A DNA stretch of 54,564 nucleotides, from NCBI GenBank assembly GCA_026418055.1, contig JAOACB010000003.1, positions 2,789 to 57,352 on the forward strand, read 5' to 3'. The position numbers were made by a program, and so were the translations under genes. Below are positions 2,038 through 4,818 of this stretch, one piece after another (position 1 is the stretch's first letter; each line of letters opens with the position of its first letter). The stretch comes from Fimbriimonadales bacterium (GTDB taxonomy: Bacteria; Armatimonadota; Fimbriimonadia; Fimbriimonadales; Fimbriimonadaceae). The notes below the pieces were generated by a model. The model was not told the DNA's origin and searched no databases. It saw only the letters and a program-made list of their open reading frames with translations.

Positions 2038-2549
2038 GGGCCGTGGTGCAGCGCGTCGACCGGGCCGAGGTGTGGGTCGATGGCAAGGTGGTTGGCAGGT
2101 GCGGCAAGGGCTTGCTCGCTCTGGTGGCGGCTCACCGGGACGACGGCCCGAACGAGGCGGCCAAGATGGCCGATCGCCTGTGGGGGTTGCGCATCTTCAA
2201 CGACGAGGACGGTCGGATCAACGTCGCTCTGAAGGACCTCCCGGACTCCGGCGAGGCCAAGGTCCTGGCTGTGTCGAACTTCACCGTGTACGGGGACACC
2301 GCGCGGAATCGGAGACCCAGCTTCTCCGAATCCGCCCCCTTCGAGCGAGGCAGGGAGCTCTTCGACCGGATGGTCGAGGAGCTTCGGAGGCTCGGATGCC
2401 GGGTGGAGACGGGGGTGTTCGGAGCCCACATGGAGGTGCAAGCGGCCTGCAACGGCCCTGTCACCGTGATCGTGGACGTTCCGCCAACGGCCGGCGCGAG
2501 AGGCGCCTCCGAAACGGGGGCTGGGAACCGGCGTCAAACCGATGGATGA
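2034..2549 (+). CDS. dtd: D-aminoacyl-tRNA deacylase
   Basis: Hydrolyses D-amino acids (and glycine from tRNA-Ala) wrongly attached to tRNA. Start chosen at the GTG whose GTGA overlaps the rel stop, because the protein then begins VRAVVQRVDRAEVWVDGKVVG as the family does. The active-site strand reads SNFTVYGDT where most members have SQFTLYAD, so the usual Gln of the SQxxT motif is Asn. The Gly-cis-Pro motif (NGPVT) is present near residue 140. At 171 residues it is longer than the usual 145-150, with a Gly/Arg-rich tail. The rel-dtd order is common in bacteria. The end overlaps the region upstream of the sigma factor gene. Confidence 0.93.
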   Translation: MRAVVQRVDRAEVWVDGKVVGRCGKGLLALVAAHRDDGPNEAAKMADRLWGLRIFNDEDGRINVALKDLPDSGEAKVLAVSNFTVYGDTARNRRPSFSESAPFERGRELFDRMVEELRRLGCRVETGVFGAHMEVQAACNGPVTVIVDVPPTAGARGASETGAGNRRQTDG

Positions 2550-2571: not shown

Positions 2572-3186
2572 GTGAACGCGGCCAGCCTGGTCGGGAACGT
2601 GGCCCATTCCGGATCGATGGATTCCGACGAGGCGTTGGTGCGTCAGGCCCGCGAAGGCGATTTCGGTGCGTTCGAACGCCTTTTCGAGAGACACCGCGTG
2701 ATGGTCTACCGAATCGCCTACCGCATGACGGGCAGGAAGGACGACGCGGAGGATCTGACGCAGGACGCCTTCCTCAAGGCCTACCAGAATCTGCACCGGT
2801 ATAGGGACGAGGCCCGCTTCACCACTTGGCTCGTGCGGATCGTCACCAACTTGGCCACCGACCGGGCCCGCATGGCCAACCGCAGGCATTCTCTCGAGCA
2901 GCAGGAAGCCACGGGTGCGCTGGATTGGATGACCGTGGGAAACGCCCAGGAGGATCCAGCCGAGAATTTGGAGAGGGAGCGCGTGGGCAGGTTGATCCGG
3001 ATCGCGTTGGCCGAGCTGCCGCCGCACCATCGCACGATGATCGTTCTGCGGGACCTCGAGGAGAAGGACTATCAGGAGATCTCGCAGATCGTGGGAACCA
3101 CGGTCGGCGGCGTCAAGCTGCGGGTACTCCGAGCGAGGCGGGCTCTCCGGGACAAGGTCGCCGAGCTGATGAAGAGGACGCCATGA
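2572..3186 (+). CDS. ECF-type RNA polymerase sigma factor (RpoE-like)
   Basis: Alternative sigma factor of about 204 residues. Region 2 runs from about residue 17 (DEALVRQAREGDFGAFERLF) through the DAEDLTQDAFLKAYQ core-binding segment and FTTWLVRIVTNLATDRAR; region 4 (about 140-195) ends with a helix-turn-helix of the type YQEISQIVGTTVGGVKLRV. I chose the GTG at 2572 because a strong AAGGAGG lies at 2560-2566, five bases upstream. An in-frame ATG at 2542 and an ATG at 2617 (MDSDEALV) are alternatives. The stop shares ATGA with the next gene, a single-pass membrane protein, a typical sigma/anti-sigma arrangement. The promoter class recognised cannot be told from this window. Confidence 0.93.
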   Translation: MNAASLVGNVAHSGSMDSDEALVRQAREGDFGAFERLFERHRVMVYRIAYRMTGRKDDAEDLTQDAFLKAYQNLHRYRDEARFTTWLVRIVTNLATDRARMANRRHSLEQQEATGALDWMTVGNAQEDPAENLERERVGRLIRIALAELPPHHRTMIVLRDLEEKDYQEISQIVGTTVGGVKLRVLRARRALRDKVAELMKRTP

Positions 3187-3854
3187 TCGGACGATGGTTG
3201 CGTGAGCGGCGGGAGGAGCCCGCATGGGGCTCCGATGAGATCGGCAGGGTCGTGAAAATGGGCCTCGATTCCTTGAGGGCCGAAAGCCTGAGCCCGCAGA
3301 CCGGAATCGAGCATCTCAGGCGGCGCATCCTCGCCGAAAGCCTTCGCGGCGCCCCACGAACCCCCTGGGCTTGGAGCGTTCCCGCGGCGGCTTCGCTGTT
3401 CCTGCTGGCCTATTGGCTCGCTGGCAGCGTTCGATCCTCGCAGCCCGTGCCCGTCCTGGAACGTCCGGTCGCCTCGGCTCCGAACGAGCCGCTCGGCATC
3501 GCTGGACCCGAAGAGGTCCCGAGGTTCCCGGAGAGCGCGACGCATGTGCGGCCAGACCGGGCTGTGCAGTTCGCCGCGGTGGCCCGAGCCGATCGTGAGG
3601 AACGCCGGGGGCCGACCAACTTGGTCTCGGTCGAAGAGTCGGCTCTGGTCCGTTCCGACGCCGCCGCCTTGGCCGCGCAGGCAGCGCAGGAGGGCCCTGC
3701 GCTCATCCAGGAGGAGCAGGCCGCCCTCTCCGCGCAGACCGAAGACGGGGACGAGGAGCAGATCGTGCTGATCAACAACACCGAGGACACGGAGACCGGC
3801 GCGGCGGCCGCCGTCGAGTTGGAGACCTCAGCGAATGTTCTGGTGGGCGGATAA
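3183..3854 (+). CDS. Single-pass membrane protein, candidate anti-sigma factor
   Basis: 223 residues, with the start codon overlapping the sigma-factor stop (ATGA). Residues 1-60 are charged and predicted cytoplasmic, about 62-82 form one hydrophobic helix (WAWSVPAAASLFLLAYWLAG), and the remaining 140 residues are Ala/Glu-rich, low in hydrophobics and probably outside the membrane. I see no zinc-binding anti-sigma (ZAS) HxxxCxxC motif, so assignment as the anti-sigma factor rests on position and topology only. The 3' end overlaps the start of the HtrA-like gene by 20 bp. Sigma, membrane regulator and HtrA-like protein together resemble RpoE-RseA-DegS or AlgU-MucA-MucD modules (established knowledge), but homology is not shown. 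Confidence 0.75.
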   Translation: MIGRWLRERREEPAWGSDEIGRVVKMGLDSLRAESLSPQTGIEHLRRRILAESLRGAPRTPWAWSVPAAASLFLLAYWLAGSVRSSQPVPVLERPVASAPNEPLGIAGPEEVPRFPESATHVRPDRAVQFAAVARADREERRGPTNLVSVEESALVRSDAAALAAQAAQEGPALIQEEQAALSAQTEDGDEEQIVLINNTEDTETGAAAAVELETSANVLVGG

Positions 3855-4818
3855 ACTGACCTTGGCGGCAATTCTGCTCGCTCCGGTCGGCCAGGACGCG
3901 ACCTTGGAGCGGGTTTACCGCGACGTCCAGCCCTCGGTGGCCTACGTCTTGGAGAACGATCGCCGCGTCGGGGTGTTGGCCCTGATCGACGAGCAAGGAA
4001 CCTTCGTGGGGCATTCGCGCCTAGCCGGGGGTCTGGAGATCGAGGCCATTCTCGCGGATGGCCGAAGGTTGAGGCTGCGCTTCAAGGCGGACGACGGCGT
4101 GACTGGGTTGGCGGCTTGGGTGTCTTCGCGAGGACCGATCCCTGGCATGCGGCCGATGGCGCTCGCGCGCCAGAATCTCGCCCCAGGGGCCATTCTCGTC
4201 GGTCTGGTACCGTCCGGGCCGTTCCGCGCGCAACTGGCGTCTGCCGATCGCGTCGGCGTCGTCGGCGCTGGCCGACAGGTGGTCGAACTCTCGGAGATTT
4301 GGTTCGAGCCGCCCTCTACCGAGCCGATAGCAGGGGCATTGCTCATCACTACGGGCGGCCAGCTGTTCGGCATCCTGGGAGCAACGCTCTCCCCGCAATC
4401 GCAGGGAAGCTCCCTCGGAGCCATTGCAAGAGGAATAGGACCCAAGTCCGATCCCCCCGCCCGTTTGGGCCCCACCAAGCTGTTGGTGGCGTTCGCCGTG
4501 GGCAGAGAGCCGCTTCGAACGGCCGTCGACGGACTTGCGTCGCCCTTGGGTCGGGTGGAACGGCCCGCCTTGGGGGTGCTCTGCAGGGACGAACCATCGG
4601 GGGGAGCCTTGGTGGAAGGCGTCAGACCAGGCTCGGCGGCGGAGCAGGCTGGGCTGAAGCCGGGAGACGTGATCCTGCAGATCGGCGATCTGCCGGTGAG
4701 AAACCAAATCGGATTCGCTCGCGCGATCTCCTCGCTCCGAGTCGGAGACCGCGTCAAGATCAGGATCCGCCGAGGATCCGTGGTCACCGACCTGTGGGCG
4801 ACCTTGGAGCGGAACTAG
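3835..4818 (+). CDS. HtrA-like PDZ protein lacking the serine-protease triad
   Basis: 327 residues with a short hydrophobic N-terminus (about 7-18), so probably exported or anchored. Residues 25-200 follow the HtrA/DegS fold pattern, but all three catalytic positions look lost. The usual TNAHVV reads GHSRLA (59-64), the usual DLAVLK reads GLAAWV (91-96), and the usual GNSGGP reads EPIAGA (163-168) ahead of a preserved GGQLFGI strand. A convincing PDZ domain covers about 244-325 (LGVLC, GALVEGVRPGSAAEQAGLKPGDVILQIGD). It therefore looks like a peptide-binding pseudoprotease, possibly the stress sensor of the upstream sigma/membrane pair (inference). It overlaps the preceding gene by 20 bp and converges on recJ with a 4-bp stop-codon overlap. 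Confidence 0.82.
   Translation: MFWWADKLTLAAILLAPVGQDATLERVYRDVQPSVAYVLENDRRVGVLALIDEQGTFVGHSRLAGGLEIEAILADGRRLRLRFKADDGVTGLAAWVSSRGPIPGMRPMALARQNLAPGAILVGLVPSGPFRAQLASADRVGVVGAGRQVVELSEIWFEPPSTEPIAGALLITTGGQLFGILGATLSPQSQGSSLGAIARGIGPKSDPPARLGPTKLLVAFAVGREPLRTAVDGLASPLGRVERPALGVLCRDEPSGGALVEGVRPGSAAEQAGLKPGDVILQIGDLPVRNQIGFARAISSLRVGDRVKIRIRRGSVVTDLWATLERN

Follow-up and report, generated by a model that had tools for sequence, protein, structure and literature searches.

Three overlapping genes lie on the forward strand at positions 2572–4818 of the window (the whole 54,564-nt stretch of a Fimbriimonadales genome analyzed here), encoding an ECF sigma factor, a single-pass membrane protein and an exported protein with a trypsin fold and a PDZ domain. 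The sigma factor gene (204 aa; 2572..3186, + strand) starts with GTG and is preceded by AAGGAGG at 2560–2566; an in-frame ATG is present upstream of the annotated start, at 2542. It shares 4 bp (ATGA) with the gene of the membrane protein, a predicted anti-sigma factor without a zinc motif (223 aa; 3183..3854, + strand), which in turn overlaps by 20 bp the gene of an HtrA-like pseudoprotease with a C-terminal PDZ domain (327 aa; 3835..4818, + strand), hereafter pseudo-HtrA. Both the coordinates and the overlaps coincide with those of the first-pass annotation, as does the assignment of the first gene to ECF sigma factors: its product has regions 2 and 4 only (Pfam Sigma70_r2, 2.7e-21, and Sigma70_r4_2, 1e-12), matches the sigma70-ECF family TIGR02937 (5.1e-33), and forms one clade with the sigma factors of related cassettes (tree support 1.0).

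The same gene order, mostly with the same overlaps, recurs in relatives whose proteins are 30–40% identical, and hence the cassette is not a chance arrangement. The closest relatives of the window in public genomes come from one Armatimonadetes MAG and one Fimbriimonadaceae MAG. In most loci of the window's own family (family f1) the ATG of the pseudo-HtrA gene is located 20 bp before the anti-sigma stop (3835–3854 in the window), and in these loci the pseudo-HtrA signal peptide usually starts without a positive charge; apparently, the overlap with the anti-sigma gene fixes the first residues of this signal peptide.

A candidate ECF-type promoter was identified upstream of the operon (2511..2535, + strand), with the –35 box GAAAC at 2511–2515, a 16-bp spacer and the –10 box CGTC at 2532–2535. 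It matches the motif exactly and is placed as in the relatives, residing within the end of dtd, about 37 bp before the GTG start. Thus, as in ECF sigma factors generally, an AAC / CGT-type candidate promoter precedes the sigma factor's own gene. Sites of the form G[AT]AAC-N16-CGTC are found in 56 of the 65 loci with more than 250 bp of upstream sequence, mostly at a distance near-constant within a clade, and TAAC-N16-CGTC is observed in 31 of 77 upstream regions, compared to 0.1 expected from shuffles. The match in the window, taken alone, is not above chance, as 2.1 such sites are expected in 54 kb. As the motif precedes the operon both in the window and in the relatives, the operon is probably autoregulated by its own sigma factor, a feature missed at first reading. 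A search for further regulon members in the same genome with GWAAC-N16-CGTC yielded 21 sites, not above the 28 obtained with the reversed control, and hence we do not propose a wider regulon. GAAAC-N16-CGTC sites also occur shortly before two genes of exported proteins, of 476 aa (L242, G000:C57:72247) and 338 aa (L240, G000:C56:11431), the genome-wide number of such sites being not above chance.

The second protein has a single hydrophobic helix, at about residues 65–83 (3375..3431, + strand) by hydropathy and at 61–82 in the AF2 model, of which only the helices are usable (pLDDT 51). No Pfam domain is found in the protein of the window, and the zinc-binding pattern HxxxCxxC is absent from all members of family f1 (0/50). 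The pattern is present in the homologous N-terminal domain of the relatives, in 4 of 7 proteins of family f5, in all 7 of family f2, and also in families f3, f8 and f12; zf-HC2 matches are obtained for 6 of 31 anti-sigma members. Comparison of the alignments with hhalign relates family f1 to f5 with probability 99.1, and to the ZAS-bearing relatives, with 97.0. Judged by this homology, the membrane protein is an anti-sigma factor of ZAS descent, and the zinc motif has been lost within family f1, since the relatives retain it in the same domain. The first-pass description of a single-pass protein without a ZAS motif therefore stands, with the addition, missed there, that this absence is a later loss in f1. 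Binding of the neighboring sigma factor is predicted from membership in the anti-sigma family.

The third protein aligns with DegQ (residues 55–316, E 1.9e-12, phmmer), although among Pfam domains it matches PDZ families only and no trypsin family. In alignments with DegQ and ten active-type HtrAs of the same phylum, the position of the catalytic His is occupied by Arg62 (4018..4020, + strand), that of Asp, by Gly91 (4105..4107, + strand), and that of Ser, by Ala166 (4330..4332, + strand). The PDZ domain (4555..4794, + strand; PDZ_2, 2.5e-12) retains the motif PALGV of the carboxylate-binding loop (residues 244–248), with G247 invariant in the family alignment and the carboxylate-loop glycine kept in all clades. 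The AF2 model (pLDDT 72) matches HtrA structures over residues 21–327 (Foldseek, VIA-align 2; Z up to 25.4), the best match being M. tuberculosis HtrA Rv1223 (Z 25.4, 267 aligned residues, rmsd 3.3); the input alignment for AF2 included six HtrA-type sequences from other phyla, which favors the HtrA fold, whereas the phmmer match is independent of it. Confidence is low at residues 137–156 and 184–221, including loops that would shape any binding cleft. Hence, by alignment and model, the protein has the trypsin-fold and PDZ architecture of HtrA serine proteases and lacks their His-Asp-Ser triad, in line with the degenerate triad and the well-kept PDZ domain noted at first reading; the structure prediction proposed there as a check returned the HtrA fold. 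Its export is predicted, in the window's family from hydropathy alone. MucB_RseB domains give no Pfam match to the pseudo-HtrA at E up to 1. A Lachnospiraceae HtrA-like protein with a distant PDZ match (L046:3948-5303) also has no triad (TDSDKV, EVGLACL, TDGSGI).

The cassette is kept and co-inherited in about 105 Armatimonadota genomes, which bears out the co-conservation of the three genes that the first-pass annotation had proposed to look for. Almost every Fimbriimonadaceae genome has a relative of the third protein, mostly 30–40% identical, encoded downstream of the sigma factor gene. Of the 255 genomes of the phylum searched with a profile, 102 contain a match at E below 1e-50, with ordinary HtrAs scoring much lower; by families (tallied by hand from the search scores) these are 71 of 76 genomes in f1, 7 of 7 in f5, 14 of 15 in f2, 1 of 1 in f3, and 9 of 9 in f8, and three genomes of f12 have the same cassette at lower profile scores. 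Two reduced Fimbriimonadaceae genomes (G030 and G048; 1.5 Mb, 97% complete) yield no match to pseudo-HtrA and, when the cassette sigma factor is used as the query, no ECF match at E 1e-20. The pseudo-HtrAs form one clade (support 0.875), and their tree distances correlate with those of the cassette sigma factors (r = 0.76, with a maximum of 0.12 in permutations).

A complete triad is found in none of the 84 aligned pseudo-HtrAs, compared to all ten active HtrAs of the same phylum, and is also lacking in two further cassette members. The losses form a mosaic: proteins of f1 usually have none of the three residues, six of the seven f5 proteins keep the Asp, all nine f8 proteins keep the Ser with Asp replacing the His, and one protein (L182) has Glu, Asn and Ser at these positions. 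Despite the loss of the triad, the protease fold and the PDZ domain are conserved. Thus, as far as can be read from the genomes, in Fimbriimonadia-type bacteria this envelope-stress-type sigma factor and its membrane inhibitor are almost always encoded together with a dead exported HtrA-like protein, and as the protease site is dead in every relative examined, the third partner probably works by binding rather than cutting.

A candidate ligand is encoded in the cassette itself. After its membrane helix, the anti-sigma factor has a fast-evolving linker, followed by a conserved C-terminal stretch of about 32 residues, the predicted extracytoplasmic tail (residues 192–223, ending in NVLVGG-COOH; 3756..3851, + strand). 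Purifying selection on the tail is seen in comparison of loci L009 and L010, where at codons outside the gene overlap pN is 0.07 and pS is 0.44, compared to 0.59 and 0.60, respectively, in the linker; residues –32 to –8 are under selection at the protein level. The terminal residues differ between clades: [DN]VVxGG in f1 and f5, [IV]xSF in f2, mostly VE in f8, and AY in f12. Such a C-terminus, clade-specific and largely fixed, is what one would predict for a PDZ ligand that has a dedicated receptor. The overlap with the pseudo-HtrA gene accounts for the conservation of the D/N-V pair, which contains the ATG; as an explanation for the remaining tail it was rejected, since the terminal GG persists where the downstream start codon is at –8, –20, –23, –26 or –29, and selection is observed outside the overlap as well. 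PDZ domains prefer the last 3–4 residues of their targets (PMC8103513). The ligands of HtrA PDZ domains named in the surveyed literature end in Phe, and among PDZ ligands a C-terminal Gly-Gly is unusual. Direct contact of the anti-sigma tail with pseudo-HtrA is plausible, and we propose it chiefly because a free, conserved and clade-specific C-terminus is encoded beside a conserved PDZ domain.

Membrane anti-sigma factors with a periplasmic binding partner and an HtrA-type PDZ protein are known from the RpoE-RseA-RseB-DegS system of E. coli and the MucA-MucB-AlgW system of P. aeruginosa. There, the anti-sigma factor is cut by the active proteases DegS and AlgW, whereas RseB and MucB are non-catalytic binders with another fold; in the cassette, one dead HtrA occupies the place of RseB or DegS. 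RseB/MucB shields RseA/MucA from DegS/AlgW (PMC8545111). As the triad is missing, pseudo-HtrA is unlikely to cut the anti-sigma factor in the manner of DegS or AlgW.

What can be read directly from the sequences is the module with its co-inheritance, the loss of the triad, the conservation of the tail and the presence of the promoter motif. In the following model, to which we assign a probability of about one half, we infer the contact between the tail and pseudo-HtrA, the role of pseudo-HtrA as a guard, and the nature of the ligand and of the proteases. The cassette would be an autoregulated ECF module where pseudo-HtrA holds the anti-sigma tail in an RseB-like manner and gates cleavage by other proteases. 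The anti-sigma factor would keep the sigma factor at the membrane, and outside the membrane pseudo-HtrA would hold the C-terminal tail in the PDZ groove, in the former substrate cleft, or in both, so that other proteases could not start cutting, as with RseA held by RseB. Under envelope stress, competing ligands, probably exposed C-termini of proteins, would displace the tail, allowing for a site-1 cut by an active HtrA or another protease and then for a site-2 cut by an RseP-like protease, with the genes of both located elsewhere in the genome. The sigma factor thus freed would fire its own promoter, yielding more sigma factor, inhibitor and pseudo-HtrA. The specific variant, a latch in which the PDZ groove of the dead HtrA is occupied by the free C-terminus of the anti-sigma factor until stress-exposed protein C-termini compete it out, is put forward tentatively, at somewhat less than even odds; if true, an old stress protease would now serve an ECF switch as a receptor that acts by binding alone.

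Candidate proteases for such a model are encoded in trans. The same genome encodes several trypsin-domain proteins, including active-type HtrAs, and M50 (site-2-type) proteases. It also contains a second, canonical cassette (L110, G000:C22:1-6000), which shares with that of the window the clustering of an ECF sigma factor, a ZAS anti-sigma factor (zf-HC2, 6.3e-11) and an HtrA, and differs in having a weakly RseB-like protein (MucB_RseB match at 0.014, below the Pfam cut-off) and an active-type DegP-like protease with a complete triad (GNSGG). Presence of the canonical and the dead-HtrA systems in one genome makes the dead version stand out. Similar clusters of a sigma factor, a ZAS anti-sigma factor and an active HtrA are observed at loci L187, L191, L192, L194, L282, and L283.

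The active-type HtrAs in trans would also serve an adaptor, a dead HtrA that binds stress signals and presents the anti-sigma factor to an active protease or stimulates that protease, thereby activating the response rather than guarding the anti-sigma factor. A PDZ domain binding exposed C-termini would fit this role, and a precedent exists in magnetotactic bacteria, where the activity of the HtrA protease MamE is promoted by MamO, a pseudoprotease of the HtrA family that lacks a triad of its own (PMC4794232). Like pseudo-HtrA, MamO has lost catalysis and retained a function (PMC4794232); it differs in binding metal, in assisting MamE, and in not being linked to a sigma factor. No active HtrA is encoded in the cassette itself, and the anatomy of the cassette does not separate a guard from an adaptor; on balance we consider the adaptor role unlikely. 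Alternatively, an active protease might be what recognizes the tail.

Pseudo-HtrA could also be a regulated product and not a regulator, that is, a periplasmic holdase or quality-control factor within the sigma regulon that makes no contact with the anti-sigma factor. The operon has its own promoter motif, and HtrA genes can be located next to ECF genes even where no part in the switch is known for them, e.g., in rseA-htrA-tatB of M. tuberculosis (PMC10027907). The order sigE-rseA-htrA in that species is the same as here (ECF sigma factor, anti-sigma factor, HtrA), and its HtrA, Rv1223, the closest structural match above, is an essential serine protease, unlike the dead HtrA of the cassette; moreover, sigE and rseA are not co-transcribed, and RseA is controlled by phosphorylation and redox state (PMC10027907). 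A purely effector role leaves unexplained both the conserved anti-sigma C-terminus, which changes from clade to clade beside pseudo-HtrA, and the retention of the gene, with catalysis lost, in nearly every cassette, and we rank it as slightly less probable still than the adaptor.

Much less credible is proteolysis by a displaced triad in which, e.g., His60 would act together with Asp87. In its favor, Asp87 is invariant, and f1 proteins commonly have a His two positions before the lost one. Against it, conservation does not extend to His60, active HtrAs likewise have an Asp equivalent to Asp87 beside the catalytic Asp, and no conserved Ser, Thr or Cys is located near position 166; such a triad was rejected on these grounds. 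Nor was an intact triad restored by any other alignment; had one been, the first reading would have been refuted in its own terms. Origin as a degenerating, functionless duplicate of an active sigma – anti-sigma – HtrA cassette, in favor of which one could cite the canonical cassette with an active-type DegP in the same genome, is refuted by conservation: in about 105 genomes the reading frames are open, and both the fold and the new motifs are conserved.

We found neither a conserved pseudo-HtrA as a fixed partner of an ECF/anti-sigma pair, nor a study of sigma and anti-sigma factors in Armatimonadota (Armatimonadetes with ECF and anti-sigma), in a literature search that covered few subscription journals; the cassette, suspected from the outset to be an undescribed variant, looks undescribed in the searchable literature. 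In textbook accounts, PDZ-containing HtrA proteases act as the sensors that initiate cleavage of anti-sigma factors. If our reading is true, a class-wide, sigma-linked dead HtrA with its PDZ domain kept and a conserved anti-sigma tail beside it would separate sensing from cutting. Such a system would provide a natural experiment for studying the PDZ scaffold in isolation, and may offer a lead to the control of envelope stress in Armatimonadota.
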